A DNA stretch of 64,000 nt from Candidatus Saccharimonadota bacterium (lineage in GTDB: Bacteria; Patescibacteriota; Saccharimonadia; Saccharimonadales; Saccharimonadaceae): assembly GCA_028286365.1 (NCBI GenBank), contig JAQBRR010000001.1, forward strand, positions 248,001-312,000. The letters are read 5' to 3'. The notes beneath the pieces are model-generated. The model did no database searches. It was not told where the DNA came from and saw nothing but the letters and a program-made list of their open reading frames with translations. Shown here piece by piece: positions 1,737 through 62,731 of the stretch (position 1 is the stretch's first letter; each line of letters begins with the position of its first letter). The position numbers and the translations under genes were made by a program.

Positions 1737-2735
1737 ATGTTCACGTTTTTACTAATTTTGACAATTTTCTGCTTTATACTGCTCGTTCTCGTAGCTGGTA
1801 TGCATCCCACGATGTCTTCATTGAGTACCTATGAACTCCGTAGGAGGGCAGAGAATAGTGATCACCATGCGGCTGAGTTAGTAGGTAAGCAGCTTCTGCT
1901 GCAAGACGTGATATCTAATCTAAAGATCAAAGTAGCATTTCTACTCGTGGCACTGTCGTTTCTACTTGTTGCAACCTTTGGGGCTTTTATTGGAACGATC
2001 TTGATTATCGTCATTCTATTTGAATATGGTGCGCTGGCTCGACTACGGTTCATCAAGAAGCTATCTAGTCGTCTCTATGGCATGTTGGAATCAAAACTTC
2101 TCATAATTGCCCAAAAGTCAGCATCTATTATGAAGTTTATTCGCTCGGACGTAGAACCTGAAAATATATTTCATCTAGGCTCACGTCAAGAACTTGAGCA
2201 TCTTATTGACCAATCCGAAGGTGTGCTGACGCCAGATGACAAGAGGCTAGTTGTCCATAGTCTCGCGTTTGGTGATACGTTGGTTTCACGTATCATGACG
2301 ACAGCAGGTGAGATAGCAAGCATCAAAAAGACTGAATTCTTGGGCCCACTAACCTTAGATGACCTTCATAGGACAGGACACAGTAGACTACCAGTTATCG
2401 GAAGTGATATGGATCATATCGTTGGAGTGCTGCATCTTGAAAATCTCTTGGCGCTTGATATTAAACGATCTGTCACAGCTGAAAAGGCAATGGATCCACA
2501 CGTTGTCTATCTGCATCAAGATCAAACTTTAACTCATGCACTTGCGGCAATGCTTCGCACGCATCGACATCTATTTATCGTTATTGATTCGTCTCGCAAT
2601 ACTGTCGGCATTGTGACACTTAATGATGTCATTGAAGCACTGATCGGACGCAAAATTATTGACGAATTCGATGGTCATGAAAGTATTCGAGCTGTATCAG
2701 AGCGTAGCCTGCACGAGAAACGCCCAGAAGCTTAG
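1737..2735 (+). CDS. CBS-domain membrane protein, CorC/HlyC (CNNM)-like
   Basis: 332 residues from ATG 1737. An N-terminal membrane segment is followed by a helical pair around residues 65-100. Then come two CBS motifs (SRIMTTAGEI..., with HSRLPVIGSDMDHIVGVLHLENLL, and EKAMDPHVVYLHQDQ... with GIVTLNDVIEALIG). This is the order of CorC/HlyC-type transport accessory proteins with a shortened DUF21-like part; no C-terminal CorC_HlyC domain is evident. A TTG at 1719 lies in frame, but ATG 1737 follows a TACAAT -10-like box (1722-1727) at 9 bases and is the better start. It may affect Mg2+/Co2+ handling; this is inference. Confidence 0.75.
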   Translation: MFTFLLILTIFCFILLVLVAGMHPTMSSLSTYELRRRAENSDHHAAELVGKQLLLQDVISNLKIKVAFLLVALSFLLVATFGAFIGTILIIVILFEYGALARLRFIKKLSSRLYGMLESKLLIIAQKSASIMKFIRSDVEPENIFHLGSRQELEHLIDQSEGVLTPDDKRLVVHSLAFGDTLVSRIMTTAGEIASIKKTEFLGPLTLDDLHRTGHSRLPVIGSDMDHIVGVLHLENLLALDIKRSVTAEKAMDPHVVYLHQDQTLTHALAAMLRTHRHLFIVIDSSRNTVGIVTLNDVIEALIGRKIIDEFDGHESIRAVSERSLHEKRPEA

Positions 2736-2756
2736 CCCCTTACTAGCCTTAAGGGG
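2736..2756 (+). terminator. Hairpin after the CBS gene, no clear T-run
   Basis: CCCCTTA (2736-2742) pairs with TAAGGGG (2750-2756) directly after the stop codon. No T tract follows, so it may be a weak terminator or 3'-end stabiliser. Confidence 0.35.
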
Positions 2757-2783
2757 GGTCAGGATGATACACTACAGAGTATT

Positions 2784-4094
2784 ATGACACGAACATTAGC
2801 CGCAGAATTACCCGCGAGTATTGGCGAAACAGTCACACTCCAGGGCTGGTTACACAAAAAACGCCTACTGGGCGGACTCAATTTTATTACTCTTAGAGAC
2901 CGTAGCGGACTTGCTCAAACACTCATTATTGATGATGAACTTGAGAAACTTCGTGGTTTACAAACGGGTACGGTACTCGCTCTCACCGGCACTGTCGTAG
3001 CAGATGAACGCGCACCGGGTGGTGCCGAACTTCACGACGTTACAGTCGAAGTGACGGTCCCCGTCACTGACGAGCCGCCAATCGAAATTGATAAACCACT
3101 CGGTCATGAGTCTGAGAATCTGGACACATTATTTGATAATCGGGTGATTGGCCTTCGCAACCTTCAGGAACAAACCATCTTCAAGGTTCAAGCAAAAGTA
3201 CTCGAGACTGCCAGGAAGTACTTTATTGATAATCATTTCACAGAGATGAACACTCCGAAGCTACTGGCCGAGCCAACTGAAGGTGGTGCTGAAGTCTTTA
3301 CGCTCGACTACTTTGGAAAAACTGCATCCTTAGCGCAGAGTGCACAGTTCTACAAACAGATGATGGTCGGTGTGTTTGAACGTGTCTTTGAAACGAACCC
3401 AACATATCGAGCAGAGCAAAGTGCGACGACGCGGCATATGACCGAATATATTACGATTGATGCCGAGATGGGCTTTATTGAATTCGACGATCTACTGATA
3501 TTTACGAGTGGTCTCATTAATGCAATTATCAACAATGTGTGGGACTCATATGGTGATCAGCTCAAGAAGTGGAATGCGCATAAGCCTGTGCTAACTGAAA
3601 ATTTCCCACGTCTCTCAATGGCCGAAGTCCATGCACTCTATGCTAAGAATAATTCCGAAGATTATAGCAGTGAAGATGATCTGCGACCTGATGAAGAACG
3701 CTGGATCTGTGAGTACGCCAAGAAGAATCTTGGTAGTGAAGCAATCTTTGTGACCGAATGGCCAAGCAGTAGTATGAAATTCTATCACCGCAAAAATGCT
3801 GATAATCCCGAAATTGCTGATCGTAGCGACCTGCTATTTCGCGGTATCGAAATTGCGACAGTACCAATGCGTGAAAACCGTTATGACGTCCTCGTTGAGC
3901 AGTTAAAGACGATTGCACATGGTGATCCAGAACACCCAGGCTTTAAATATTACCTACAGGCCTTTCAGTATGGCTTACCTCCACATGGTGGATTTGGTCT
4001 CGGGCTTGAGCGTCTAACCGAAAAAATTGTTGGACTCAACAACGTTAAAGAAGCGACGCTTTTCCCCCGCGATATCAATCGCCTTACTCCTTAA
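2784..4094 (+). CDS. aspS: Aspartyl-tRNA synthetase, archaeal/non-discriminating type
   Basis: 436 residues, close to the length of archaeal-type AspRS and much shorter than the bacterial type (about 590), which carries a GAD insertion that is missing here. An N-terminal OB-fold (VTLQGWLHKKRLLGGLNFITLRD) binds the anticodon. Class II motif 2 is seen as YRAEQSATTRHMTEY and motif 3 as GFGLGLERL near residue 403. It charges tRNA-Asp and, if non-discriminating, also tRNA-Asn, which would require GatCAB elsewhere. ATG 2784 has a TACACT box 10 bases upstream. The family call is firm; discrimination cannot be decided from sequence here. Confidence 0.92.
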   Translation: MTRTLAAELPASIGETVTLQGWLHKKRLLGGLNFITLRDRSGLAQTLIIDDELEKLRGLQTGTVLALTGTVVADERAPGGAELHDVTVEVTVPVTDEPPIEIDKPLGHESENLDTLFDNRVIGLRNLQEQTIFKVQAKVLETARKYFIDNHFTEMNTPKLLAEPTEGGAEVFTLDYFGKTASLAQSAQFYKQMMVGVFERVFETNPTYRAEQSATTRHMTEYITIDAEMGFIEFDDLLIFTSGLINAIINNVWDSYGDQLKKWNAHKPVLTENFPRLSMAEVHALYAKNNSEDYSSEDDLRPDEERWICEYAKKNLGSEAIFVTEWPSSSMKFYHRKNADNPEIADRSDLLFRGIEIATVPMRENRYDVLVEQLKTIAHGDPEHPGFKYYLQAFQYGLPPHGGFGLGLERLTEKIVGLNNVKEATLFPRDINRLTP

Positions 4095-4174
4095 AAGCGA
4101 CCGCATTCCTAAGCGAGCTTTCAGTTTATCTAATATATACTTACTGATAGATCTAAAAATAGAAGGAATTAAAT

Positions 4175-4687
4175 ATGTCGGATCAAACTAGGACCAAAAT
4201 CATTGGCCTTATCGTTATTGTGCTGCTTACGACCGTCGGAACTGTCGGTGCGGCTGCCTATAATGCACGATCGACCCAGCAGATAGCCGCTAGTGCGAGT
4301 CAGCCGAATGTAGTAGGTAGTAGCCCTAGTTCGCAGACAGCGACGACATCTTCAACTCCCTCTACTGCTTCATCGTCATCGAGCGCAACTTATAAAGATG
4401 GTACATACACTGCCAACGGGTCATTTTATACACCGGATGGTACTGAGCAAATTGGTGTCACACTAACACTTGCAAGTAATAAAATTACCGCTGTCTCAAT
4501 TGATTCATCATCAATATACTCTGGTACCTCAGCAGAATACACTGACAGATTTAGTAGCGGTATTAGTAGTGTGGTTGTCGGTAAGAATATTGCAGATGTA
4601 CAAGTATATAGAATATCTGGCGCATCGCTTACACCGATGGGCTTTAATAACGCACTCAGCGCGATTGAAAATGAAGCCAAAGCCTAG
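4175..4687 (+). CDS. Exported FMN-binding domain protein (covalent flavin carrier)
   Basis: 170 residues. A membrane segment (about 9-27) is followed by a Ser/Thr-rich linker (about 35-72), then an FMN_bind domain (YKDGTYTANGSFYTPDG... to the end). The motif SGASLTP near 148-154 fits the site where ApbE attaches FMN through a phosphoester to Ser/Thr. AGAAGGA lies 9 bases upstream of ATG. It overlaps apbE by 17 bases, so the substrate and its modifying enzyme are translationally coupled. It should act outside the membrane as a one-electron or two-electron relay. Confidence 0.85.
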   Translation: MSDQTRTKIIGLIVIVLLTTVGTVGAAAYNARSTQQIAASASQPNVVGSSPSSQTATTSSTPSTASSSSSATYKDGTYTANGSFYTPDGTEQIGVTLTLASNKITAVSIDSSSIYSGTSAEYTDRFSSGISSVVVGKNIADVQVYRISGASLTPMGFNNALSAIENEAKA

Positions 4688-5525
4688 CATTACATTTGAA
4701 GCTTTGGGTACGGAGTGGATGATAGAGGCCATTGACGTCGCGCGCCAGCAAACCAATATTAAGAATGAGCTTGATCGCATCGATCATATTTGGTCACGTT
4801 TCCAGGATGACTCACTTATTTCACTCATGGCAAAAGAGGCTGGTACGTATGAGCTTGATCAATCTGATGCTCTGCTTATGAAATGGTATCAGCAGCTCTA
4901 CGAGGCAACTGATGGCTTAGTAAGTCCTCTGATCGGGCAAGCACTTGTTGATGCCGGTTATGATCAAGCATATTCACTAAAGCCAAAAACTATCGTTCAT
5001 TCATCTCCGACATGGGAGGACACGTTAGTTATTGGAATTGATTCTATAACAATCAAACAACCAGCTCTCATTGATGTTGGTGCCGCTGGTAAGGGCTATG
5101 CTGTCGATCAGGTAGCGCGTCTGCTTGACGGTGACTACTGTGTTGATGCGAGCGGAGACATACTCGTTCATGGTCAAGAGATGCGTATTGGTCTCCAGAG
5201 CCCACACGACGAGACACAGTTAATTGGTGTTGCGACAATTAAAAACGAAAGTATCTGCGGATCCGCTATTACTCGTCGGGCCTGGGGTGATTGGCATCAT
5301 ATCATTAACCCAAAAACTGCTAAGCCAGTCGACGACATTATCGCGACCTGGGTGATCGCAGATAATGCAATGCATGCCGATGGTCTCGCAACGGCTCTAT
5401 TCTTTGTCTCGCCAGAAAAACTTAACCAACTTACACAGTTTGAGTACTGTATTATATATCGTAACGGTACCGTGAAATCAGTAGGTCAGAAAATAGAATT
5501 ATTTACCGAGAAGGCTACCAAGTAA
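4671..5525 (+). CDS. apbE: FAD:protein FMN transferase (ApbE)
   Basis: 284 residues from ATG 4671 inside the end of the FMN-binding gene; the longer upstream frame belongs to that neighbour. The family pattern is visible: an N-terminal LGTEWMIEA, DGLVSPLIGQALVDAGYD, IDVGAAGKGYAVDQVARLL, ASGDILVHG, and a C-terminal HHIINPKTAKPVDD followed by ADGLATALF. ApbE transfers FMN from FAD to Ser/Thr on exported proteins using Mg2+. No signal peptide or lipobox is seen, so it may work at the inner face or be exported in another way. Its stop overlaps the next start by one base (TAATG). Confidence 0.9.
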   Translation: MKPKPSITFEALGTEWMIEAIDVARQQTNIKNELDRIDHIWSRFQDDSLISLMAKEAGTYELDQSDALLMKWYQQLYEATDGLVSPLIGQALVDAGYDQAYSLKPKTIVHSSPTWEDTLVIGIDSITIKQPALIDVGAAGKGYAVDQVARLLDGDYCVDASGDILVHGQEMRIGLQSPHDETQLIGVATIKNESICGSAITRRAWGDWHHIINPKTAKPVDDIIATWVIADNAMHADGLATALFFVSPEKLNQLTQFEYCIIYRNGTVKSVGQKIELFTEKATK

Positions 5526-7024: not shown

Positions 7025-7047
7025 CAAAACAAGCTATGATAGAACAT

Positions 7048-7545
7048 ATGGATGATGCTAATGTTCCAGTTGAAACCGCAACGGTAGCTCCGACTGTTCC
7101 TGCAGTTGCTACAAAGCCCAATAAACAACGCCACTTTCTGGCTGTTTTCTTCTTTAGTTATATGTGGGGCACCTTTGGCATTGATCGTTTTTATCTTGGA
7201 AAAGTGGGGACTGGAATCTTAAAACTCGTAACGATTGGTGGCTTTGGTATTTGGACGATTATCGACTTAGCACTTATTACGTCAGGTGCTATGCGGGACA
7301 AACAGGGCAATGAGATGTTAGAAGCTGCCAGGTATAAAAAGTTCGCTGGGCGGACTATTTTGTGGTCTGCAGTTATTATAGCGGCAGGCGTACTCGTCAG
7401 TGGCATTAGTCTTATCTTGACAATAACAGCACTTATCACACAGGTTCAAAGTGGTGGTCTAGATATTCAAAAGCTGCTTCCATCTGGAGTTTTACCGACG
7501 AGCTCAACGACACAGTCAGTTGATCCATCTACTCTCGGTTTTTAG
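7048..7545 (+). CDS. TM2-domain membrane protein
   Basis: 165 residues. A Pro/Val/Thr-rich N-terminus is followed by the TM2 domain ([20 protein letters not shown] then [11 protein letters not shown]), with two close membrane helices and a third later helix (about 105-130). The function of TM2 proteins is not known. ATG 7048 is 7 bases after TATGAT (7035-7040), so the upstream in-frame ATG at 7036 overlaps the -10 box and is less likely. The stop shares the bases TTAG with the convergent alkA-like gene. Confidence 0.75.
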
Positions 7546-8186: not shown

Positions 8187-8187
8187 T

Positions 8188-8823: not shown

Positions 8824-8825
8824 AA

Positions 8826-9353: not shown

Positions 9354-9383
9354 ACTTCTATTATACGCCGTTATACTAGAGTG
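9354..9383. promoter_or_regulatory. Divergent leaderless promoters msrA / mutY-like
   Basis: Only 30 bases separate the two start codons. TATAAT for msrA occupies 9365-9360 on the - strand and TATACT for the + gene occupies 9372-9377; each ends 6 bases before its start codon (ATG 9353 and GTG 9384). Each -35 must lie inside the region of the other promoter or gene. Confidence 0.7.
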
Positions 9384-10223: not shown

Positions 10224-10240
10224 CCGTGGAAAGCGATAAT
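10212..10240 (+). promoter_or_regulatory. Promoter of the 10248 gene, leaderless
   Basis: TTGACC (10212-10217) and GATAAT (10235-10240) have a 17-base spacer. The -10 box ends 7 bases before ATG 10248. The -35 box lies in the last codons of the mutY-like gene. Confidence 0.7.
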
Positions 10241-10247
10241 AGGTAAG

Positions 10248-10796
10248 ATGTTAAACTCCCGACGACTGATTACACTAGGACTACTTGCGACCGTCGTAGC
10301 GTCAGTGGTTTTCTTGACACGTGTCTCTGCTGACGACTCATCGATGACAGACGCGCAGATTGTCCGTATCAAGGCTAGTTGTACTAGTGCCAAAACCTCT
10401 CTAAACCAACTACGAGTTAGCGATGCACTACTTCGGGTAAACCGTGGACAAATGTACGATTCAATGACGAGCAAGCTGATGTCTCCATTTAACAGTCGGG
10501 TTGATAGTAACAACTTGAATTCAAAAGACCTCGTTTCAATTACGAACAATTACAACACGGCATTTACGACGTTTAGTAATGACTATCAGGCGTACGCCGA
10601 ACAGTTATCCTCAGCACTTAATATTGATTGTCAGAAAGAGCCTGTTGCCTTTTATGATGCAGTGGCTAGTAGTAGGACTAAACGCGGCCAAGTACACAGC
10701 GATGTCGTTATTCTTCACCAATACATCGATGATTATGCAACTGCTTTTGGTACATTTGTTAGTGATAATCAACAAACAATTGGAGTAGGTAAGTAA
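10248..10796 (+). CDS. Secreted or membrane-anchored protein of unknown function
   Basis: 182 residues. A signal or anchor helix covers about 7-24 (ITLGLLATVVASVVFL) and is followed by a mostly helical extracytoplasmic part with two cysteines (about 45 and 126) that could form a disulfide. No family is recognised. The stop overlaps the next start (TAATG), so the two genes are coupled. It starts with a leaderless promoter. Confidence 0.65.
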   Translation: MLNSRRLITLGLLATVVASVVFLTRVSADDSSMTDAQIVRIKASCTSAKTSLNQLRVSDALLRVNRGQMYDSMTSKLMSPFNSRVDSNNLNSKDLVSITNNYNTAFTTFSNDYQAYAEQLSSALNIDCQKEPVAFYDAVASSRTKRGQVHSDVVILHQYIDDYATAFGTFVSDNQQTIGVGK

Positions 10797-12423: not shown

Positions 12424-12478
12424 AGGATAAGTATATCATCCCTCGGTCGGCCCCTATGTTATACTAGGCACATAATTG

Positions 12479-13126: not shown

Positions 13127-13129
13127 ATG

Positions 13130-13158: not shown

Positions 13159-13193
13159 AACTCTCGTATAGCACTAACAGGAGGAGAATCTTA

Positions 13194-13400: not shown

Positions 13401-13415
13401 TCTTACGTAATAGAC

Positions 13416-15512: not shown

Positions 15513-15541
15513 TTGACTTTTAATACTACTTATGCTATAGT
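15513..15541 (+). promoter_or_regulatory. Leaderless promoter of the 15549 gene
   Basis: TTGACT (15513-15518), 17-base spacer ending TATGC, TATAGT (15536-15541), then 7 bases to ATG 15549. Almost the same architecture is found again at 16064-16092. Confidence 0.8.
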
Positions 15542-16063: not shown

Positions 16064-16092
16064 TTGACTTATATAACCTCTTATGCTATAAT
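16064..16092 (+). promoter_or_regulatory. Leaderless promoter of the 16099 gene
   Basis: TTGACT (16064-16069), 17-base spacer ending TATGC, TATAAT (16087-16092), then 6 bases to ATG 16099. This is a near-consensus promoter with an extended -10. Confidence 0.85.
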
Positions 16093-18622: not shown

Positions 18623-18651
18623 TTGACGCTTGGGAGGGCATATCATATAGT
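18623..18651 (+). promoter_or_regulatory. Leaderless promoter of the 18658 gene
   Basis: TTGACG (18623-18628), 17-base spacer, TATAGT (18646-18651), then 6 bases to ATG 18658. Confidence 0.8.
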
Positions 18652-19128: not shown

Positions 19129-19173
19129 TTAACGCATTTAGCGGCAAACATCTAACAAGTATATACTTAAGGT

Positions 19174-25784: not shown

Positions 25785-25968
25785 GAGGTTATGATAGCAG
25801 ATAAAGCATGAACTGATCGAGTAAATAAGATTGTCATGAATAAAAATAAAGACAATCCTGAAGTCTAACGGTAGGTGTTAAGATAACCATGCAGCAAAGC
25901 TTGTAATTTGCTTATTAACCATTACCTTGATAGTATTACCATAGGTACCATGTTCATGGATGAGAATA

Positions 25969-25994
25969 GAGATTAGTGATGTATACCTAATCTC
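25969..25994 (+). promoter_or_regulatory. Hairpin upstream of the ice-binding-like surface gene
   Basis: GAGATTAG (25969-25976) and CTAATCTC (25987-25994) form a perfect 8-pair stem with a 10-base loop. The 25785-26094 region otherwise shows no supported gene; an ORF through it in frame with the surface gene would put residues before the signal peptide. Confidence 0.35.
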
Positions 25995-26094
25995 AGTATC
26001 TCCCGTTAAACATATCACTCAACCCTCTATACGTTTCTGGTTGGAACTGATGCACAGATCACTCAGGACATTAACCAGTAAACAGAGGGCAGTT

Positions 26095-27033
26095 ATGAGA
26101 AAATTCAGCAATACTAAAGTAGTCGGCGGCATATTCATAGCTGTCAGTGTATTTATTACCAGTCTAGTAATAGGCGTAAGTCCTGTTGCACGAGCTGCTC
26201 AGTCAACCGTTAATTTAGGTGGAGCTGCTCCATTTGCGATACTTGCAGGCACACCCAATATTACGGATGCCGGCAATACATCTGTTATTCATGGCAACGT
26301 TGGGCTAAGCCCTGCGACCGGTGCGGGCATTGGCCTTCTGTGTTCACAAGTAACAGGTACTATCTACTCCGTTGATGCAACTGGACCACTACCTTGTCGA
26401 GTAACAAATGGTCCGTTGATGGTTATCGCAAAAAATAATCTTACTAACGCTTATATTGATGCTGCAGGACGAACACCACTCACGACTGTTCCAACTGAAC
26501 TTGGTGGGACGACATTAGTAGCTGGTGTGTATAATTCTACGTCAACGACCTTTGGTATTACCGCAGGGGCTGGATCATTGACGTTGAATGGCCAGGGTGA
26601 TTCCTCCTCCGTCTTTATCTTCCAAGCGCCGTTTAGTGGTAATGGACTGACGGTTGGCAATGGCAGTACCGTGTCACTTATTAATGGTGCGCAAGCTTGT
26701 AATGTCTTTTGGCGGGTTGATACCGCGAGTATCGGATCAACTGCTAACTTTGTTGGGACAATACTTGCACTTAACTCTATAACTGCCGCAAATGGGGCAA
26801 CTATTTCGGGTAGGTTATTAGCCCGAAATGGAAATGTCACACTTATTAATGACACTATTACGACATCGACTTGTGCGGGAAATGATACGTCTGATAACAC
26901 CGTTGTTGTTCCTGGATTACCTAACACTGGACTTTTTAGCAGCCAAAGTTTGTTGTGGATTGTTGTTCCTTCAGCAATTGTCTTAGTGGTTTTACTACTT
27001 GCCTATGTTGGTCGTAGAAAACACTTAATTTAG
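26095..27033 (+). CDS. Ice-binding-like (DUF3494) surface protein with LPXTG anchor
   Basis: 312 residues from ATG 26095, chosen because it places a signal peptide (about 9-34, ending VARAAQ) at the N-terminus and has GAGGG upstream. Residues 38-255 match the DUF3494 ice-binding-like fold (LGGAAPFAILAGTPNITDAG; VIHGNVGLSP; VYNSTSTTFGITAG; SVFIFQAPF; NVFWRVDTASIGSTANFVGT). The C-terminus has LPNTG (275-279), a membrane helix and the basic tail GRRKHLI, a sortase signal. DUF3494 proteins include ice-binding adhesins, but many bind other surfaces. Its sortase is encoded 7 bases downstream. Confidence 0.87.
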   Translation: MRKFSNTKVVGGIFIAVSVFITSLVIGVSPVARAAQSTVNLGGAAPFAILAGTPNITDAGNTSVIHGNVGLSPATGAGIGLLCSQVTGTIYSVDATGPLPCRVTNGPLMVIAKNNLTNAYIDAAGRTPLTTVPTELGGTTLVAGVYNSTSTTFGITAGAGSLTLNGQGDSSSVFIFQAPFSGNGLTVGNGSTVSLINGAQACNVFWRVDTASIGSTANFVGTILALNSITAANGATISGRLLARNGNVTLINDTITTSTCAGNDTSDNTVVVPGLPNTGLFSSQSLLWIVVPSAIVLVVLLLAYVGRRKHLI

Positions 27034-27040
27034 ACTTTTC

Positions 27041-27688
27041 ATGCGCAGGCAGCACGCCAAGAAACCATCCAAAACTACATTACGGAGAATACTATTGTTT
27101 GTTGGCGTGCCAGTAGTTTCGTCTTGCCTCATGTTTATACTTTTGCATGTCTTTGTACCTATTCCTTATAGTTCTACACCGTCAGTAAGAACAGTCATTA
27201 TAGTTCCAACGTCTCCCAAGGTCATAAAAGCTAGCGCTATTGTCAGCGCACTGCCGGTGCGCCTTGAGATTACAAGTATTAACATTGACACGACAATCTA
27301 CACAGCAGGGCTAACGAGTAGTGGGGATATGGATATAAGTGAAAACCCTGACGAAGTTGCCTGGTATCAGTTTGGTCCAAAACCGGGAGAGATAGGTAGT
27401 GCTGTGATTGCGGGGCACTATGGCTGGAAGGATGGTCATGGTTCAATTTTCAACAATCTCCACATGCTCGTAAAGGGTGACGAAGTTTCTGTTTATGATC
27501 AAAAAGGCGTTAAAAAGGTGTTCGTTGTGCAGGCAACTCAGATATATAACCCTGACGCGGATGCAACTAAAGTGTTTGTCTCTACTGATAAGAAAGCGCA
27601 CCTTAATCTAATTACGTGTGAAGGGACTTGGGTAAATACCAAGGATAGCTACTCAAATCGACTTGTTGTCTTTACGGACTTGAAATAA
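27041..27688 (+). CDS. Sortase (class D/E-like)
   Basis: 215 residues. An N-terminal membrane anchor (about 17-37) precedes the sortase barrel. Catalytic His126 (AGHYGW), Cys193 (LITCEG) and Arg207 (SNRLVVF) are all present. It should cleave the LPNTG protein encoded immediately upstream and attach it to the cell surface. The one-substrate operon suggests a dedicated pair. No housekeeping sortase is seen in the window. Confidence 0.92.
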   Translation: MRRQHAKKPSKTTLRRILLFVGVPVVSSCLMFILLHVFVPIPYSSTPSVRTVIIVPTSPKVIKASAIVSALPVRLEITSINIDTTIYTAGLTSSGDMDISENPDEVAWYQFGPKPGEIGSAVIAGHYGWKDGHGSIFNNLHMLVKGDEVSVYDQKGVKKVFVVQATQIYNPDADATKVFVSTDKKAHLNLITCEGTWVNTKDSYSNRLVVFTDLK

Positions 27689-29499: not shown

Positions 29500-29516
29500 A
29501 GCGTATACTAATATAT

Positions 29517-37922: not shown

Positions 37923-37949
37923 CTAGCACTCATTGACATTGAGTGCCAA
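37923..37949. promoter_or_regulatory. CIRCE operator of hrcA-grpE
   Basis: CTAGCACTC, 9-base spacer, GAGTGCCAA. The -35 box TTGACA (37933-37938) lies in the spacer and pairs with TACAAT (37957-37962) at 18 bases. HrcA binding would block the promoter. The -10 ends 6 bases before ATG 37969. Confidence 0.93.
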
Positions 37950-37968
37950 ATCGGGCTACAATATTGAC

Positions 37969-38679
37969 ATGACAGAACGCCAAATGCAGATACTGGCCGC
38001 AATTATCGAACAGCATGCAGAGATCGCTGCACCAGTGGGAAGTGTAATGCTTGCCAAGCTTTTTGGCGTATCGAGCGCCACGATTCGAAGCGAAATGGCA
38101 CGTCTTGAAGAAATGGGTCTGATTGCTCAGCCACATACTAGTGCTGGTCGTGTCCCGACTGATGCAGGCTATCGTTTTTATGTTAATACTCTCAATGAGT
38201 TACATGCCAATGAACCACAGACGATGTTATCAGATCGTAGTGCTAAGGCGATTGAAGCTCGCGTTGGTAACCAGACGGGCGCTGATCGAGCAATTCGTAG
38301 TGCTGTTGATAGTCTTGTTGATCTGACGCACAATTTAGGCCTCGCTACGATTGGCGATGAACTGTATCTTAGTGGTATTGGTAATCTTTTCTCGCAACCG
38401 GAATTTGCCTCAGCTAATCACACTCAGGAAGTAGCAAGACTACTTGATAATTTAGAGCCTTGGTTACGCGAAGCTGCTCCTAATGAGCCATTGAACGTTT
38501 ATATTGGTGCCGAAAACCCTATCGGTAAGTCTAGTGGCGCAAGTCTCATTATTAGCAGGTTTCGTTCACCATACAGTGACCGTAGTTATATTGGAGTCCT
38601 CGGATCAACTCGTCAAAGTTACGCAAAGGTAATGCGCCTCGTTCGTCATGCGGGTGCAATGTTGGAGGAAGTATTGTAA
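37969..38679 (+). CDS. hrcA: Heat-inducible transcription repressor HrcA (short form)
   Basis: 236 residues from ATG 37969, which lies 6 bases after TACAAT; a TTG at 37933 would be inside the operator. The winged helix (MTERQMQILAAIIEQ..., GVSSATIRSEMARLEEMGLI, QPHTSAGRVPTDAGYRFYV) is typical. Common HrcA has about 340 residues; the middle dimerisation/inserted region is much reduced. C-terminal GAF-like block SLIISRFRSPYSDRSYIGVLG is kept. It represses its own operon and, by CIRCE sites, dnaK and dnaJ. Confidence 0.93.
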   Translation: MTERQMQILAAIIEQHAEIAAPVGSVMLAKLFGVSSATIRSEMARLEEMGLIAQPHTSAGRVPTDAGYRFYVNTLNELHANEPQTMLSDRSAKAIEARVGNQTGADRAIRSAVDSLVDLTHNLGLATIGDELYLSGIGNLFSQPEFASANHTQEVARLLDNLEPWLREAAPNEPLNVYIGAENPIGKSSGASLIISRFRSPYSDRSYIGVLGSTRQSYAKVMRLVRHAGAMLEEVL

Positions 38680-39815: not shown

Positions 39816-39842
39816 TTGGCACTCTTGACACGAGAGTGCCAA
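39816..39842. promoter_or_regulatory. CIRCE operator 1 of dnaK
   Basis: TTGGCACTC, 9-base spacer, GAGTGCCAA: a perfect palindrome. The -35 TTGACA (39825-39830) lies in the spacer; TATAAT (39849-39854) follows after 18 bases. Confidence 0.95.
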
Positions 39843-39862
39843 CTTATGTATAATGAAGTTAC

Positions 39863-39889
39863 TTGGCAATCTAGGACGTAGAGTGCTAA
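39863..39889. promoter_or_regulatory. CIRCE operator 2 of dnaK (degenerate)
   Basis: TTGGCAATC, 9-base spacer, GAGTGCTAA. The left arm has two mismatches to consensus. It lies just downstream of the transcription start in the dnaK leader, 21 bases from the first operator. Confidence 0.75.
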
Positions 39890-42276: not shown

Positions 42277-42303
42277 CTAGCACTCTGGACTTTTGAGTGC
42301 TAG
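42277..42303. promoter_or_regulatory. CIRCE operator of the dnaJ operon
   Basis: CTAGCACTC, 9-base spacer, GAGTGCTAG: a perfect palindrome. TGGACT (42286-42291) in the spacer can serve as -35 and TATACT (42309-42314) as -10, spacing 17. ATG 42325 follows after 10 bases. Confidence 0.94.
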
Positions 42304-45295: not shown

Positions 45296-45360
45296 GCTGA
45301 AGTTACTAAATAACAACGTATTTTGGTTGTTATTATAAGCATAAGGGCTATATTAAGAGT

Positions 45361-46680: not shown

Positions 46681-46730
46681 CTTTTAGGTAGAAGATTTCA
46701 GGTTCTTGCCATAGAGCATATAATAAGTAG

Positions 46731-47345
46731 ATGAATCTTCACCGTACATCTGGAAAGCCTGATTGGGAAAACGTAAAGCAAGTTGATCGCAATATTTTTC
46801 AGCGATTGTCAGCAAAAACGTACGGAATTATCTCACCTGCAAACATTATTACTCTTATTGGTCTGGGCATTGTAATCTATGGTCTTATTGCAATTTTACG
46901 TCAACAGTTTTGGCTTGGCTTGGTATTACTAGCGATCGGTCGTCTACTCGATATTATCGATGGTGTAGTGGCAGAGTCAACACAAACAAAGTCTCCGCTC
47001 GGTGAATTATTTGATGCAGCATCAGACAAAGTTGGAACATTACTTACGATAATTGTATTGATATTCGCTGGCATTACATATTGGTGGGTGATCCTAGCAC
47101 TCGTTATTCCACAAGCCGTAATTCCACTCGTAACGTTCTATAAGAAAACAAAAGGTACTAATATTCATCCGACACGACAAGGAAAACTAAGCATGGCCAC
47201 GGCATGGGTTGGTATTGTAGGACTAGTCATTGTTAAGGCGTTAAATGGTTTTTGGCCGCTCGCAGTTGGTATTTATATAGTTATTGGCCTATCTTTAACA
47301 TTAGGATTATATGCTCTTTGGCAGTATTCAACTAATAGAGATTAG
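46731..47345 (+). CDS. CDP-alcohol phosphatidyltransferase-family protein with altered motif
   Basis: 204 residues with about five or six membrane helices. The family motif D-x2-D-G-x2-A-R-x8-G-x3-D-x3-D is present with exact spacing (D74, D77, G78, A81, G91, D95, D99), but the Arg is Glu82. It should transfer a phosphatidyl or related group from a CDP-activated lipid to an alcohol. TATAAT ends 6 bases before ATG 46731. The stop shares TTAG with the convergent CarS-like gene. Confidence 0.82.
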   Translation: MNLHRTSGKPDWENVKQVDRNIFQRLSAKTYGIISPANIITLIGLGIVIYGLIAILRQQFWLGLVLLAIGRLLDIIDGVVAESTQTKSPLGELFDAASDKVGTLLTIIVLIFAGITYWWVILALVIPQAVIPLVTFYKKTKGTNIHPTRQGKLSMATAWVGIVGLVIVKALNGFWPLAVGIYIVIGLSLTLGLYALWQYSTNRD

Positions 47346-47899
47346 ATCGGGTCTTCTTTAAGGCCAAGCGTATAACCAATATAACTTGCAAGTAAGTGTC
47401 CTAAGAACCATACAACAAATATCCATACATATTGAAGTGGCGACAAAATGACAAAGAATAGTGTTACGATTACGCTGCCGATAATATAATCCAGCTGGTC
47501 GAAGGGTATCCAAGCTTTTCCTGATCTAATATTCTTTTGTCGTTTAAAGAAACTTTCAATAGCATCACCTCCAAGTGCGCCAATCGCAAAAAGTGGTCCG
47601 AGTATTAGGGTAGGAAGAGTTGTATAGTTGACTCCATCCGCTGCGTAATGCGCCCACTCAAAATTATCGAATAGAAGTTGCTGGACCCACAATAGTAACG
47701 TTGCGACAATAATACCTGAAATGATTCCACGCCAAGTTTTGTGTGGTCCAAGCAGGCGATGTCCATGCCATATCTTGCCTGCATCAATTGGAGCATTAAA
47801 CTTTTTTAGAAATGGTATTGCAGCAGTAAAGACAGGAATAGCGTTTGAGATAGCAGCTGGGAATAAGAACCAAATAGCAAATAATATATCCTGAACCAT
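47342..47899 (-). CDS. CDP-archaeol synthase (CarS)-like CTP transferase
   Basis: 185 residues with about five membrane helices. The motif GGDAIESFFKRQKNIRSGKA, followed by WIPFDQLDYIIGS, is the CarS/CdsA signature (GD..ES..KR...GK....D..D...G). An N-terminal KIWHGHRLLGPHKTWRG is typical of CarS. In archaea it activates digeranylgeranylglycerol phosphate with CTP; in bacteria the substrate is unknown and is likely a phosphatidic-acid-like lipid. Leaderless start, with a -10 shared with the divergent gene. Confidence 0.83.
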   Translation of the reverse strand: MVQDILFAIWFLFPAAISNAIPVFTAAIPFLKKFNAPIDAGKIWHGHRLLGPHKTWRGIISGIIVATLLLWVQQLLFDNFEWAHYAADGVNYTTLPTLILGPLFAIGALGGDAIESFFKRQKNIRSGKAWIPFDQLDYIIGSVIVTLFFVILSPLQYVWIFVVWFLGHLLASYIGYTLGLKEDPI

Positions 47900-47919
47900 A
47901 CATTTAGTATACTTGATAC
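47900..47919. promoter_or_regulatory. Symmetric bidirectional -10 element
   Basis: The palindrome AGTATACT (47906-47913) contains TATACT on both strands. On the + strand it ends 6 bases before ATG 47920; on the - strand it ends 6 bases before ATG 47899. The start codons are 20 bases apart, so both genes should be leaderless and cannot fire at the same time. Confidence 0.8.
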
Positions 47920-48804
47920 ATGAGTTACTCGACTATTGCTATCATTTATAATCCTAATAGTACTGGGTCTGGGGAAGTGCTTGCTCGGGACCTAGAAGAA
48001 CAAATTCACACACGTTTACCAAACCAGAAAGTTGAACTCATCGAGACTGGGCATGCAGGTCATGGAGAAGAATTAGCCTACTCAATCGCTTTGTCGTCGA
48101 AGAATCCTCTCATTATTTCTTCAAGTGGAGATGGTGGGTACCATGAGGTTATTAACGGAATAATGAGAGCGCAAAAAAAAGGCTTAAAAATCACTACAGG
48201 TCTATTGCCAGCCGGTAACGCTAATGACCATTATCATAATTTACACACCAGAGATATTATTGATCAAATTGTAAGTAATGAAACAACCAAAATTGACTTG
48301 CTGAAAATTGTTGGCACATCAAAAGGTAAACGCGTTGAACGGTATGCGCATTCATATATCGGATTTGGCCTTACGCCGATAGTAGGAAACGAACTAAACA
48401 AAACAAAACTAACTCCTCTTAATGAGTTTTGGATCGTTGCTCGATCACTTTTTGCTATAAAACCAATTCGATTAAAGATCGGTGACAAAACTCGACATTA
48501 TGAAAGTATTATTTTTAGCAATGTCGATGTAATGTCTAAGTATTTAAAAATATCTCAACCTTCTAGTGTGACTGACGGTAAGTTTGAGGTAACTATTTTT
48601 AAGCGACATAATAAGCTAAAACTCATTATGCTTTTGCTTCAGGCATCAGTCAAAGCTCTTAAAGAAGATGAACAAGTGAGCGAATTTTCACTAAAAACGG
48701 TTCGTAATACTTTAGTGCAAGCAGATGGGGAGATTATGACACTCGATGGACACTCAGATGTATCTATCACAATTGAACCCCGAGTATTAACCTGTATTAT
48801 TTAA
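47920..48804 (+). CDS. Diacylglycerol kinase-like lipid kinase
   Basis: 294 residues. The DAGK catalytic motif is SGDGGYHEVINGIM (near 69-82; usually GGDGT..E..NG), preceded by AIIYNPNSTGSGEV and followed by LLPAGNANDHYH. It probably phosphorylates a diacylglycerol or related lipid. With the divergent CarS-like gene and the CDP-alcohol transferase it could complete a route from lipid alcohol to CDP-lipid to phospholipid. Confidence 0.87.
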   Translation: MSYSTIAIIYNPNSTGSGEVLARDLEEQIHTRLPNQKVELIETGHAGHGEELAYSIALSSKNPLIISSSGDGGYHEVINGIMRAQKKGLKITTGLLPAGNANDHYHNLHTRDIIDQIVSNETTKIDLLKIVGTSKGKRVERYAHSYIGFGLTPIVGNELNKTKLTPLNEFWIVARSLFAIKPIRLKIGDKTRHYESIIFSNVDVMSKYLKISQPSSVTDGKFEVTIFKRHNKLKLIMLLLQASVKALKEDEQVSEFSLKTVRNTLVQADGEIMTLDGHSDVSITIEPRVLTCII

Positions 48805-48868
48805 TTTTTAGTGAACAGTTGAACGACACCAAAAAATTTTAAACTTCTAGCCTGCTATAATAGTGCTT

Positions 48869-49382: not shown

Positions 49383-49393
49383 TTTATAGATGC

Positions 49394-49470: not shown

Positions 49471-49677
49471 AAGAAATTGACTCACCTCGTGTGGGTCTAT
49501 TTCTATGGAGGGCCATGCGTTTAACCCACGACACGCCAGGGTGGAGTGAGCGAGAACTGCCGGTGGCAGTTCGCAAGGCAACCTTCCGATGGCAACTGGT
49601 TTGCCAATCGAGAAGTTGAGCAAGCCCCACTGATTAATTTTTCACAGCTAATTCTCAGAATTTGTTATACTATGGCC
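49471..49677. other. Structured region after tRNA-Lys with tRNA-like fragments
   Basis: No supported gene. On the - strand, 49496-49543 contains GTGTCGTGGGTT and GGCCCTCCA, close to the 3' half of the tRNA-Lys just upstream. On the + strand, 49620-49631 repeats CAAGCCCCACTG from the same tRNA. Stems ACTGCC/GGCAGT and CGAT-GGCAA/TTTGCC-ATCG are also visible. It may be the remnant of tRNA duplication or a small structured RNA. Confidence 0.45.
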
Positions 49678-51135: not shown

Positions 51136-51142
51136 ATGTTAT

Positions 51143-52684
51143 CTACCAACTCCCGCCGCCGCCGCCACCAAAACCACCGCCGCCTATGCCACCACCGGAA
51201 CTGACACTGCTATTACTTGAGACGACGTTCGCGAAACTACTACCAAGATCTGAAGCAAGTGATATTGCAGAGAAGGCCACTAAGTTGCCGCTATACCAAC
51301 CTGTAGACTGAGTGAGATCAATGCCATCAAATTTCTTTGCCCATTGTTTCTCGACGCCAAGTGCAATCGCGTAGGGAAGTAATGCATTGAAGCGTTCTGG
51401 AGTTTTGTCAGGTGCATCGGTAAAGTTGAGTCGATCTTTTTCAACGACGCTCAAGTATAATTTGAATCCATCAACTTGTGCCCATTCTTTTGCCCCCTCG
51501 TCAGTCAGTGTTCCGCGCATGAAAATGTCACCACTATTTTGGTAATAGCCAAGGTTCGTTAGGTCAGACTTAATCGATGATTTGAAGATTGATACTTCGC
51601 TTGCCATAGTGCCTTTATCAAGCTGGGAAAGTTTAACCTGTTGGTTAGCACCAAAGAATGAACTAAGTAAAAGAGACTCTGTGCGCGGTAGAGTATCACC
51701 ATTTTTTAGAAGGACTAGCTGATAATCCTTCGAGCCAAAAAGACCAGTCTTAGGAAGATAGATAATTTTAATATAGCCCTGTACTGCCCAATTAATAACT
51801 GTTGCCGTGATCTCGCGATTATCAGAAACATCATCTTCGAGTAAGCCAATATGAGCGGGCGATAAGCCTTTGGGCGGTTCATACTGCGCAACAACGATTT
51901 GGCGTTTTTTACGTCTATGTGTACGAACTGCCCGAATTATAAATATGACAGCAACTCCAACTACGACGAGCGCAATGAGTATACCAATTGCAGCACTTCC
52001 GATTGCAGCCAGTACATCTTCGGTTCGCATTTTGTTAGGTTGTAGATAGTTTGTAACGTAGCTGTTTGGCAGAGTTGCATTAATTGTGACGCCTTGATAA
52101 GGCGCGACGTAGTCAACCATTAACTCACCTAGGTTTGTACTTTGATTGCTGGCACCATACCACGAAACATTACTAAGTTGCGCGTTGTTCTCTAGTGTTA
52201 CTTTGGCAGAAATATTATAAATCGGTACAGTCCAACCAGATCCGACAACGTCTAGATTTAGAAAAGGTTTGTTGTCTTTTTGGGTGACAAGAGGGTAGAG
52301 TTCATAACTGATAACGTATGTATGAATACCTGTGATTGTCGTATTTGGATCACCAATCTGGATTCGCTTATTACCGCTATCGGTTGATAGTTGTGTTTGA
52401 ATGGAATTACCATTTTCATCAGTAACACTATCGAGGTTGAAATTAACATAGTAGTTTGTATTGCCATCATGGTAATCAATTGGTATATCACGATAGATTC
52501 CGTGATGAGCATTTGAAGCAAAGTCATATACGATTGTTTCCTTGACCGTAACATTATTAGTGTGGCTGATAGTAATCTGGCTATCGAAGCGACTAACTTG
52601 CTCAGTATCTGCTGCGTATGTTACTGAGTTATTTGCGATGATGACAAATATGAGCAGTCCGATAGCAATAAGCAGTTTCTTCAT
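51143..52684 (-). CDS. DUF2207 membrane protein with Gly-rich C-terminus
   Basis: 513 residues. A signal peptide (1-24, ending TYAAD) precedes an extracytoplasmic DUF2207 domain (ISHTNNVTVKETIVYDF; HHGIYRDIPIDY), a membrane helix (about 225-250), a basic stretch RTHRRKKR and a cytoplasmic region. It ends SSGGGIGGGGFGGGGGGSW, a tail seen in many DUF2207 proteins. Function not known. TAAGAT ends 6 bases before ATG 52684. Confidence 0.88.
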   Translation of the reverse strand: MKKLLIAIGLLIFVIIANNSVTYAADTEQVSRFDSQITISHTNNVTVKETIVYDFASNAHHGIYRDIPIDYHDGNTNYYVNFNLDSVTDENGNSIQTQLSTDSGNKRIQIGDPNTTITGIHTYVISYELYPLVTQKDNKPFLNLDVVGSGWTVPIYNISAKVTLENNAQLSNVSWYGASNQSTNLGELMVDYVAPYQGVTINATLPNSYVTNYLQPNKMRTEDVLAAIGSAAIGILIALVVVGVAVIFIIRAVRTHRRKKRQIVVAQYEPPKGLSPAHIGLLEDDVSDNREITATVINWAVQGYIKIIYLPKTGLFGSKDYQLVLLKNGDTLPRTESLLLSSFFGANQQVKLSQLDKGTMASEVSIFKSSIKSDLTNLGYYQNSGDIFMRGTLTDEGAKEWAQVDGFKLYLSVVEKDRLNFTDAPDKTPERFNALLPYAIALGVEKQWAKKFDGIDLTQSTGWYSGNLVAFSAISLASDLGSSFANVVSSNSSVSSGGGIGGGGFGGGGGGSW

Positions 52685-52838
52685 AAATCAATCTTACCAT
52701 GTACTTTCGTCACTCTTACTTTGCCAAGGACGGACCTTTGCTCAGCAAAAATTAAGCTTTTAAAATAGTCCGAGTCATTGGATCATTTCCGTATCTGTTA
52801 TAATAAAGGTAATACGATAATTATCTGGAGAAGAAGAT

Positions 52839-53558: not shown

Positions 53559-53571
53559 CTTTAAATAATCC

Positions 53572-53600
53572 TTGATTTTTGCTGAGAATTTGTATATTAT
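53572..53600 (+). promoter_or_regulatory. Leaderless promoter of the lamin-tail surface protein
   Basis: TTGATT (53572-53577), 17-base spacer, TATTAT (53595-53600), then 6 bases to ATG 53607. Confidence 0.8.
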
Positions 53601-53606
53601 TTTGAT

Positions 53607-55469: not shown

Positions 55470-55483
55470 ACTATACTTAAGCT

Positions 55484-56561: not shown

Positions 56562-56679
56562 GCTCATGTCACTATACGCCAAAATAAAAATAAAGCAAAA
56601 GCACAATGTTTTTGTAGTTGATGATAAGAATTAACATTAACTAGCTGAAAGGACACACCTCACGTATAATGATAAACAT

Positions 56680-57249: not shown

Positions 57250-57252
57250 CAA

Positions 57253-58146: not shown

Positions 58147-58172
58147 ACGTGATTTAAGGTATACTAATGATA

Positions 58173-59201: not shown

Positions 59202-59220
59202 GTTGTTATAATGAGGCTAT

Positions 59221-59970
59221 ATGAATCCTGAAGAGGCTATATCAGATCAAGACGAACGACCTGTTGCCTATGACACAGCGGGACACCCTCTCTACATGCA
59301 CCCATCTCAGATGGCACGACCCGAGGCAATGGTCGCAAGCCAGGCTGTCCATATGGCTCAACCATCTGATATTGAAAAGCCATTCGTAAGTGATGCAACT
59401 AAAGTGAAGCATGATCGTTCACACCAGCTTTATCCAACGCTTAATTTAAGTGAGGGTGAATATGTTGTCGCTGTTGTGCGCCGTCACCCAATAGGGCTTT
59501 TCGTTGCATTCGGTCTTGGATTATTGTTCGTGACTATCGCAATTTCAGCATTATTTAATTATGATATTGTTGTTCAGATTCTGAGACTTAAAGGAGCTGC
59601 CGCTAATGTTGGCTCAATGGCTCTACCTATTATTGCTCTTGTACTACTCATCTGTTTACTGACATACGTTGCCTACTATGTGTATATAAATAATAAATTT
59701 TATCTTACGAATGAGAGCATCATCGAGCAGACGCAAACAAGTTTATTCTCTCACGTTGAGAAATCAATAGACCTTGCCAGTGTTGAAGACATAAGCTATG
59801 CGCAAACAAATGTTCTCCAAGCGTTAGTAAATTACGGAACGATTAAACTCAGTACAATTGGTGACGAAAAGTCATATCTTTATAATTACGTCGCAAGTCC
59901 TAAAGACTATGTCGACACCCTCAATAATGCGGTTGAGGCTGCCAAAAACGGCCATACGGCTGCTCTGTAG
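59221..59970 (+). CDS. bPH (DUF304)-type membrane protein
   Basis: 249 residues. A disordered N-terminus of about 75 residues is followed by two membrane helices (LFVAFGLGLLFVTIAISALF; LPIIALVLLICLLTYVAYYV) and a bacterial PH-like domain (FYLTNESIIEQTQTSLF...LASVEDISYAQTNVLQALVNYG). Role unknown, often near envelope genes. TATAAT lies 8 bases before ATG. Confidence 0.8.
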   Translation: MNPEEAISDQDERPVAYDTAGHPLYMHPSQMARPEAMVASQAVHMAQPSDIEKPFVSDATKVKHDRSHQLYPTLNLSEGEYVVAVVRRHPIGLFVAFGLGLLFVTIAISALFNYDIVVQILRLKGAAANVGSMALPIIALVLLICLLTYVAYYVYINNKFYLTNESIIEQTQTSLFSHVEKSIDLASVEDISYAQTNVLQALVNYGTIKLSTIGDEKSYLYNYVASPKDYVDTLNNAVEAAKNGHTAAL

Positions 59971-59973
59971 GTA

Positions 59974-60369
59974 CTATTTGTTTTTGCTGTCTTTTACGAA
60001 ATCAGCTTCGTTTTGCAGTGTTGTACGTAGCGTGTAACTTTTACATTGATCGCTTGTACAATTGAGGGGTTCATAGCGGTAATTGCTACCAGCTGCACCA
60101 ATTTTGACACCATTTGGGTCTGTAAATAACGCAGGATCAACAGAAGGAAGGTTTGTCTCATTTATGGTCTGTGGGTAGAAACCGTTGGCTTTATAGAAAA
60201 CCTCTTCGAGGCTATAGTACATCGCGTTAATGGCGGTTTTACGTTCGTTATCACGAGCTGCTACCTCAACGTTATTCTTTTGAATGAAGAACATAATACT
60301 TGCTCCTACTAGGAGTAGCACGATGACGATAAGTTCGATAACGGTAAAACCCCGAGAGTGCTTGTTCAT
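59974..60369 (-). CDS. Type IV pilin-like protein
   Basis: 131 residues. The prepilin start is NKHSRGFTVIELIVIVLLLV: a short basic leader, cleavage after Gly and a Glu at position 5 of the mature part. The C-terminal domain has two cysteines (NCTSDQCKSY) spaced for a disulfide loop. It is a major or minor pilin. PilN/PilO-like genes are at 63-64 kb. TATAAT ends 8 bases before ATG 60369. Confidence 0.9.
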   Translation of the reverse strand: MNKHSRGFTVIELIVIVLLLVGASIMFFIQKNNVEVAARDNERKTAINAMYYSLEEVFYKANGFYPQTINETNLPSVDPALFTDPNGVKIGAAGSNYRYEPLNCTSDQCKSYTLRTTLQNEADFVKDSKNK

Positions 60370-60438
60370 TGTCTCTCATTATAGCAAATTATCAGCGCTC
60401 GACGTATAATAATAGATAGATTAAAGAGAGGGAACAAT

Positions 60439-61479
60439 ATGGCAGCTAAAAAAGCAACAAAAGATCCGCTTCAAGAGAAGCCAACTGCGTCTGAGGGAAA
60501 GCTTAAAGCATTAGGGCTTGCGCAGGAACAAATTAACAAGCAGTTTGGTGATGGCGCAATTCGTCGACTTGGCGACACGACGACCGTTGATGTTGAGCTC
60601 GTCAGTAGTGGTGCATTATCACTAGACTTGGCATTAGGTGGTGGTTATCCAAAGGGTCGAATCCTAGAGATTTATGGACCTGAGAGCTCTGGTAAGACAA
60701 CATTAACTTTACATGCGATCGCTGAAGTTCAAAAACTTGGCGGTACGGCTGCCTTTATTGATGCCGAACACGCGCTTGATCCTGCTTATGCTCGTCGCCT
60801 TGGTGTCGATACGGATAATCTGCTGGTCTCTCAACCAGATAATGGTGAGCAGGCTCTAGAGATTGCCGAGACATTGGTTCGCTCTAATGCAGTTGATCTC
60901 GTTGTTGTTGACTCCGTTGCAGCGCTGGTTCCACAGGCTGAGATTGACGGCGACATGGGGGACAGCCACATGGGACTTCAAGCGCGCCTCATGAGCCAAG
61001 CACTCCGTAAGTTAACGGGCATTATTAGTAAAAGCAAAACAACCGTTATTTTCATTAATCAGATTCGTATGAAGATTGGTGTGATGTTTGGTAACCCTGA
61101 AACGACAACTGGTGGTAATGCGTTGAAGTTTTACGCCTCAGTTCGTCTCGATATTCGTCGTACAGGTCAAATCAAATCAGGTGAAGATATCATTGGTAAC
61201 CGTACAAAAGTAAAGGTTGTTAAGAACAAGATCGCGCCGCCTTTTAGAGTTGCAGAATTTGATATCATGTACAACGAAGGAATTTCTAAGACAGGTGACG
61301 TCTTGGATCTTGCCGTTCTTCATAATATTGTTGATAAGTCTGGTGCATGGTTTGCATATAACGACGCTAAAATTGGTCAGGGCCGTGAAGCCAGTAAAGA
61401 ATACCTCAAAGAAAATCCAAAAGTCTTGGCTGAAATCGAAGCTAAGGTTCGTGCTAAGGTAGCTGCCGAAGCCGCTTAG
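60439..61479 (+). CDS. recA: Recombinase RecA
   Basis: 346 residues. Walker [10 protein letters not shown] (80-88), [14 protein letters not shown], the [21 protein letters not shown] block and loop L2 [28 protein letters not shown]. It mediates homologous recombination. GAGAGGGA lies 7 bases before ATG and TATAAT near 60402, so the message has a short leader with a ribosome binding site. recX follows after 7 bases. Confidence 0.99.
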
Positions 61480-61486
61480 TCAAAGC

Positions 61487-62125
61487 ATGAAAATCACGGC
61501 TATAGGGATCCAGGCGCGTGACAAAAACCGCGTTAATGTGTCAGTCGATGGTAAGTATCGCTTTAGTCTTGATGTGTTTCAACTCAGTGATATCGGAATA
61601 CGAGTTGGTAATGAATATACCGACGATGAGTTAATAGCCCTCGAACAAGAGAGTCAGTTTGGTAAAGTCTACGCACGTGCGCTTGAGTATAGCTTGATGC
61701 GTCCGCATAGTGCCAAAGAAGTACGAGATTACTTGTATCGTAAAACACGGCCAACTCGTACTAAGTCAGGCGAGATGCGTGAGGGTGTGAGCCCGGAGGT
61801 AACAACTCGAGTGTTCGATCGACTAGTCGAAAAAAAGTATGTGAATGATCTGAACTTTGCTCGCTATTGGGTTGAAAACAGGTCGCTGACTAAAGGCGCT
61901 AGCAAACGCAAGTTAACCGCAGAACTGCGTACAAAAGGCGTTGAACAGTCAATCATTGAAACGCTACTTGCAGAATCTGAACGGACGGACGAAGATGAAC
62001 TTCAGAAAGTCATTTTGAAGAAACGTTCAAAATATCCTGACGAACAAAAACTGATGGCTTATTTGGCACGTCAAGGATTCTCCTACGACGATATCAAAGA
62101 AGCGTTATCAAAAACTGAGGATTAG
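61487..62125 (+). CDS. recX: RecA regulator RecX
   Basis: 212 residues. Three-helix repeats typical of RecX: YALEYSLMRPHSAKEVRDYL-like repeat 1 (ARALEYSLMRPHSAKEVRDYL), then FDRLVEKKYVNDLNFARYWVE and KLMAYLARQGFSYDDIKEAL. It modulates RecA filaments. It is in an operon with recA. Confidence 0.93.
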   Translation: MKITAIGIQARDKNRVNVSVDGKYRFSLDVFQLSDIGIRVGNEYTDDELIALEQESQFGKVYARALEYSLMRPHSAKEVRDYLYRKTRPTRTKSGEMREGVSPEVTTRVFDRLVEKKYVNDLNFARYWVENRSLTKGASKRKLTAELRTKGVEQSIIETLLAESERTDEDELQKVILKKRSKYPDEQKLMAYLARQGFSYDDIKEALSKTED

Positions 62126-62155
62126 CCAAACTGATTCTGCTTTTGGCAAAGAGTT

Positions 62156-62731
62156 TTAGGCATCAGTATTTTCGGGCTGTGGTGAGGTGGATCTAAACGG
62201 ATTAACATAGGATCGGCGTTCTGCTTTTACGACTTTTTCTATTTTTTTTGCGGTGGTTCGCACGATGATACTATGATCGTTAATCTCGACTATTTGTGAA
62301 CGGTGAACGAGAAGACTTGTCTCAGTCAATGCCTTCAATACTCCTCGTTTCACATTAAGTTGTTGGATTACAAAGTTATCTGATTCGACACTGTAATCTT
62401 CGACTTTGCCGAGTTTATGTTTTGATTGATCTATGACATTCATACCAAGGAGATTAAACCCGAGTTTATATAATTTATCAATTTTAATGACATCTTCTAA
62501 ACCGATAAATTCGTCACTACTATCGACGATCATGCCGATAGTGCTGAGTTCGCGTATATCGTCAGTTAGAACAAGGGACGGACGTTCGGTTAGTAGAGGT
62601 CCTTCAAGAACATAAGCGACAATTTTGAGACTAGCTGGGTCGATTAAAGGAGTGTTGGCTGCGGCTAGGCGTGCGCCAGTCTGGAGACTGAGTACGGGCG
62701 TGTCAATGAGTTGCGAGCCAAGGAGTAGCAT
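62156..62731 (-). CDS. PRC-barrel domain protein
   Basis: 191 residues. Two PRC-barrel-like halves: LLLGSQLIDTPVLSLQTGARLA... and GMNVIDQSKHKLGKVEDYSV. The C-terminus is basic and Ser/Pro-rich. PRC-barrels bind proteins or RNA; the exact role is unknown. TATACT ends 6 bases before ATG 62731, so it starts its own leaderless transcript next to the pilus genes. Confidence 0.82.
   Translation of the reverse strand: MLLLGSQLIDTPVLSLQTGARLAAANTPLIDPASLKIVAYVLEGPLLTERPSLVLTDDIRELSTIGMIVDSSDEFIGLEDVIKIDKLYKLGFNLLGMNVIDQSKHKLGKVEDYSVESDNFVIQQLNVKRGVLKALTETSLLVHRSQIVEINDHSIIVRTTAKKIEKVVKAERRSYVNPFRSTSPQPENTDA

Follow-up and report, generated by a model that had tools for sequence, protein, structure and literature searches.

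Predicted leaderless gene starts set by -10 promoters in a Saccharibacteria genome

Genes that are led by a TANNNT hexamer and transcribed without a leader are well described in Actinobacteria and Deinococcus-Thermus (Zheng et al. 2011, PMC3160421). In these systems, as in the genome analysed here, the first T of the hexamer lies about 12 bp before the start codon, a Shine-Dalgarno (SD) sequence is missing and such genes are mixed with SD genes. The present genome differs in that it belongs to another lineage, has a GC content of about 44% instead of being GC-rich, and carries hexamers that are more TATAAT- or TATACT-like with a TG extension. We found no mention of TM7 in PMC3160421. GeneMarkS-2 (Lomsadze et al. 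2018), as cited in PMC9581028, predicts leaderless transcription in 21.6% of bacterial species, and its leaderless class, as far as it is described there, mixes promoter and RBS models in one genome as observed here. No published description of leaderless genes in Saccharibacteria or other Patescibacteria was found; the GeneMarkS-2 species survey may already include them. On our best reading, leaderless initiation is a known process and what the sequences would add is its extension to Saccharibacteria and, less strongly, to other Patescibacteria.

Hexamers before the start codons of the window

The window is a stretch of 64,000 nucleotides, for which an earlier note had claimed that a TATAAT-like hexamer ends 6-8 bases before more than twenty start codons. 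This was borne out. All 23 listed coordinates are start codons of the type given, and in 22 of them a TANNNT hexamer ends 6 nt (17 starts) or 7 nt (7048, 15549, 29517, 48869 and 58173) before the codon. The exception, 10248, has GATAAT at 7 nt and is the weakest of the listed starts; the hexamers at 52684 and 25784 are modest. The boxes outside hrcA and the pair 47899/47920 are:

7035-7040 (+): -10 TATGAT, 7 nt before ATG 7048; TM2 domain (Pfam)
9360-9377 (both strands): two back-to-back -10 boxes, TATAAT (-) and TATACT (+), serving 9353 (-) and GTG 9384 (+)
10235-10240 (+): doubtful -10 GATAAT, 7 nt before ATG 10248
12430-12435 (-): -10 TATACT, 6 nt before ATG 12423; Mur ligase family
15536-15541 (+): -10 TATAGT with TG extension, TTGACT at 17, 7 nt before ATG 15549
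16087-16092 (+): -10 TATAAT with TG extension, TTGACT at 17, 6 nt before ATG 16099
18646-18651 (+): -10 TATAGT, TTGACG at 17, 6 nt before ATG 18658; AHSA1 domain
19162-19167 (+): -10 TATACT, 6 nt before ATG 19174; Crp-like regulator
25791-25796 (-): -10 TATCAT with TG extension, 6 nt before ATG 25784; GDSL lipase
29504-29509 (+): -10 TATACT, 7 nt before ATG 29517; 57-aa ORF
45349-45354 (+): -10 TATATT, 6 nt before ATG 45361; ATP-grasp
46719-46724 (+): -10 TATAAT, 6 nt before ATG 46731; CDP-alcohol phosphatidyltransferase
48856-48861 (+): -10 TATAAT with TG extension, 7 nt before ATG 48869
49666-49671 (+): -10 TATACT with TG extension, 6 nt before ATG 49678; ComEC-like
52691-52696 (-): weak -10 TAAGAT, 6 nt before ATG 52684; DUF2207
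53595-53600 (+): -10 TATTAT, 6 nt before ATG 53607; lamin-tail-domain protein
55472-55477 (+): -10 TATACT, 6 nt before ATG 55484; ruvC
58160-58165 (+): -10 TATACT, 7 nt before ATG 58173; ruvB
62738-62743 (-): -10 TATACT, TTGGCA at 17, 6 nt before ATG 62731

Four further genes of the window that had not been listed, 25068 (-), 56680, 59221 and 60369 (-), have TANNNT at 8-9 nt. Positions 25960-27688 encode an ice-binding-like protein followed by a sortase, possibly a surface-anchored pair.

Two further claims held in part. TTGAC-type -35 elements at 17 bases, said to accompany several boxes, are found at 10248, 15549, 16099 and 18658; at 37969 the spacing is 18 bp, and genome-wide the -35 enrichment is weak. 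The hexamers had also been said to correct the longest-ORF start of at least seven genes. This stands for 37969, where homologues align from residue 1, and for 9384, where the longer ORF would overlap the divergent gene 9353, while the proposed changes at 7048, 48869 and 58173, like the preference for 49678 instead of 49672, involve 6-12 nt, a difference too small for homology to resolve.

Distance plots, promoter elements and related genomes

For distance plots blind to promoters, the start of each ORF was taken as its first ATG and the expectation was derived from internal ATGs. A reversed-pattern control was judged too crude for a claim about distance, and these gene-based plots were used instead. 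The genome comprises 850,738 bases in two contigs, of which the window and a held-out sample of 14 stretches outside it (272 kb) cover about 40%. In the window, 15 of 72 genes have TANNNT at 6 nt against 0.6 expected (binomial 5e-17), and in the held-out DNA 40/255 genes have it against 2.5 expected (binomial 5e-35), so that the peak at 6-8 bases that the earlier note had proposed to look for is present, at 6 nt. In both plots it is sharp to one base, with shoulders at 8, 9 and 11 nt in the held-out DNA. After subtraction of the background, the hexamer lies at exactly 6 nt in about 14% of genes and within 6-9 nt in about 25%; our best reading translates this into predicted leaders of exactly 0 nt for about 14% and of 0-3 nt for about 25% of genes. 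Overall, in about one gene in six or seven the promoter should be placed for the mRNA to begin exactly at the start codon.

The same pipeline recovered Deinococcus deserti, which is known to use leaderless genes (6/28), and did not recover E. coli (1/46). TANNNT at 6 nt was found in 42/265 genes from the same family (3.5 expected), 26/236 from the same order (3.4 expected), 65/306 from named Saccharibacteria (4.3 expected), 30/363 from other Patescibacteria (3.3 expected) and 7/62 from Actinobacteria (0.1 expected); Clostridia have no peak at 6 nt (5/282 against 3.0 expected). A first sample of the phylum gave 47/285 but was biased, since high motif counts had played a part in its choice. Systematic sampling of other Patescibacteria gave a weak 8/229 against 2.2 expected, and a strong phylum-wide claim was dropped; the strong signal therefore belongs to Saccharibacteria and is patchy elsewhere.

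Features that had played no role in the selection were then counted in 56 genes of the 6-nt class and 206 other genes of this genome. A TG extension at -15/-14 is present in 20/56 compared to 9/206 (p = 4e-9; 40/60 compared to 8/182 in named Saccharibacteria) and a pyrimidine at -1 in 46/56 compared to 115/206 (p = 3e-4), whereas the -35 element is only weakly enriched (16/56 compared to 28/206, p = 0.014). The typical promoter is an extended -10 that does not strongly depend on a -35. SD-like sequences are depleted in the 6-nt class (3/56 compared to 106/206, p = 2e-11), and about half of the genes without a box (100/206) also lack one. Genes that overlap an upstream gene on the same strand rarely carry the box (1/49 compared to 52/259 others, p = 8e-4) and more often an SD (33/49 compared to 99/259). 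The split between the two modes of initiation, for which a division by function had been considered, is seen to follow gene position, that is overlap with the upstream gene.

CIRCE operators and divergent pairs

The CIRCE inverted repeat occurs in the window upstream of hrcA, dnaK and dnaJ. As it is located by its own inverted repeat, independently of any start codon, and carries the -35 in its loop, it fixes the hrcA promoter independently of the start codon.

37923-37949 (+): CIRCE operator upstream of hrcA, 2 mismatches to the consensus; 9-nt loop holds -35 TTGACA
37957-37962 (+): -10 TACAAT of hrcA, 18 bp after TTGACA and 6 nt before ATG 37969
37969-38679 (+): hrcA, predicted leaderless (Pfam HrcA C-terminal domain); the longer ORF starts at TTG 37933
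39816-39889 (+): tandem CIRCE-like elements of dnaK; the first loop holds -35 TTGACA and is followed by TATAAT, the second lies in the leader, with AGGAG before ATG 39941
42277-42303 (+): CIRCE of dnaJ; TATACT 10 nt before ATG 42325, predicted leader about 4 nt

One regulon is thus predicted to combine leadered (dnaK), short-leadered (dnaJ) and leaderless (hrcA) starts. Orthologues of HrcA align from residue 1 of the protein starting at ATG 37969; its closest named matches are Candidatus Saccharibacteria genomes at 83% identity, e.g. GW2011_GWC2_44_17, and an unplaced MAG reaches 84%, which fits the earlier note's placement of the DNA. Operator and repressor family are the same as in Clostridia and related Firmicutes. 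However, in most hrcA genes of Clostridia an SD separates CIRCE from the start codon, whereas here the operator overlaps the -35 and hrcA is predicted to have a very short leader or none. The geometry recurs in 30 genomes of the order, with predicted leaders of 0-6 nt in 17/30 and of 16-33 nt in 11/30, and with no assignment in 2/30. For five orthologues (L171, L172, L174, L177 and L180) a leader of 17 nt with no clear SD is predicted; some of them, L180 most clearly, carry a second CIRCE-like repeat ending at the ATG of hrcA.

Orthologues of the diacylglycerol kinase gene 47920 mostly keep TANNNT at 6-7 nt despite their divergence (35-47% identity), and ruvC orthologues keep the 6-nt spacing in some cases only. 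Since leaders, or an apparent position inside an operon, are seen for many ruvC and 11/30 hrcA orthologues, the leaderless state changes within the order; ruvC, often seemingly inside an operon, is a poor test of conservation.

Gene 47920 probably shares its -10 with a divergent neighbour:

47906-47913 (both strands): palindromic AGTATACT, giving a -10 TATACT on either strand, at 6 nt from ATG 47920 (+) and from ATG 47899 (-)
47920-48804 (+): diacylglycerol-kinase-domain protein (Pfam), predicted leaderless
47342-47899 (-): CarS-like/CTP transferase family protein (Pfam), predicted leaderless, divergent partner of 47920

The two start codons are separated by 20 bp, and the palindrome in this gap probably serves both genes. 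A pseudo-symmetric core that serves both strands is also known from E. coli bidirectional promoters (PMC12825309, whose main text does not mention leaderless messages); what differs at 47899/47920 is the distance of 6 nt between the common -10 and either codon, which would leave both transcripts without a leader. Precisely this arrangement was counted at 29 places in 25/192 genomes, compared to 13 for the reversed pattern (Poisson 9e-5), a modest excess over an imperfect control. ORFs of >100 aa run both ways in 6 of 20 inspected layouts (L105, L106, L112, L113, L114 and L123), and the genes differ. Orthology of these palindromic promoters had been expected but was ruled out, as different genes flank them. 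It is conceivable, if somewhat doubtful, that leaderless promoters allow extreme compaction in Saccharibacteria, with one palindromic -10 within a gap of 20 bp giving two divergent leaderless messages, the other promoter elements lying inside each other's coding sequence, and this symmetric layout arising repeatedly between unrelated gene pairs. The starts 9353 (-) and GTG 9384 (+), also divergent and of leaderless type, lie 30 bp from each other, and each has its own -10 box in the gap.

Initiation mechanism, rival explanations and meaning

With a probability of roughly 0.9, these patterns reflect ordinary leaderless initiation beside SD initiation, in which a sizeable minority of genes would have sigma-70-type, often extended -10 promoters ending 6 nt before the start. 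RNA polymerase would bind such a promoter and, because the -10 ends 6 nt before the start codon, should start on the A of the AUG; messages would begin there or 1-5 nt away, and ribosomes would initiate on the 5'-terminal AUG with no SD. SD pairing with the intact anti-SD would serve those genes that overlap an upstream one, along with some further genes (dnaK, recA). Promoter geometry, its statistics, its conservation and SD exclusion were read directly from the genomes, and we infer the actual transcript 5' ends and a 70S- or IF2-dependent binding of leaderless messages, a mode already known in other bacteria. Longer transcripts that begin at promoters further upstream may cover genes of the 6-nt class as well. 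Regarding the machinery, the 16S 3' end reads GGATCACCTCCTT with the anti-SD CCTCCT intact, and a single Sigma70_r2 match was found, i.e. only one sigma-70-type factor. For S1 there is an open frame of 366 aa that scores below the family cut-off, bS21 matches just below its cut-off and IF3 is present. Given S1 and IF3, no specialisation for leaderless messages was seen in the translation factors examined.

That promoters abut the genes but yield short leaders of 1-6 nt, i.e. near-leaderless messages, would agree with the shoulders at 8, 9 and 11 nt and with the leaders of 2-6 nt predicted for many hrcA orthologues. Still, the dominant peak at exactly 6 nt puts +1 on the A of the AUG, and we regard this explanation as quite improbable. 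Marginally less credible is that the AT-rich hexamer acts as a translation enhancer on a longer leader, as in Bacteroidota or as an S1-binding site. S1 is indeed present, and the lack of an SD in 100/206 genes without a box implies that some non-SD signal may exist, but the one-base sharpness, the TG extension, the pyrimidine at -1 and a -35 placed in the CIRCE loop with a spacing of 17-18 bp are features of promoters. Chance arising from AT-rich intergenic DNA and the choice of start codons can be practically dismissed: although upstream regions are AT-rich, with a TANNNT background of 2.9% per position, 17-21% at one position compared to 2.7-2.9% (p about 1e-26 to 1e-35) and the lack of a peak in Clostridia speak against it, and the promoter-blind, held-out test refutes it. 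The coexistence of starts set by a -10 with SD starts, as proposed in the earlier note, is thus supported by the promoter-blind plot, by independent promoter elements, by the CIRCE-anchored hrcA and by SD exclusion.

For Saccharibacteria and, to a lesser degree, other Patescibacteria, leaderless initiation beside SD initiation implies that start-site annotation tuned to SD sequences will misplace starts. hrcA exemplifies the loss or gain of a leader under a fixed operator. A small genome and a single sigma-70-type factor make Saccharibacteria a simple system for studying how leaderless and SD initiation share one ribosome.
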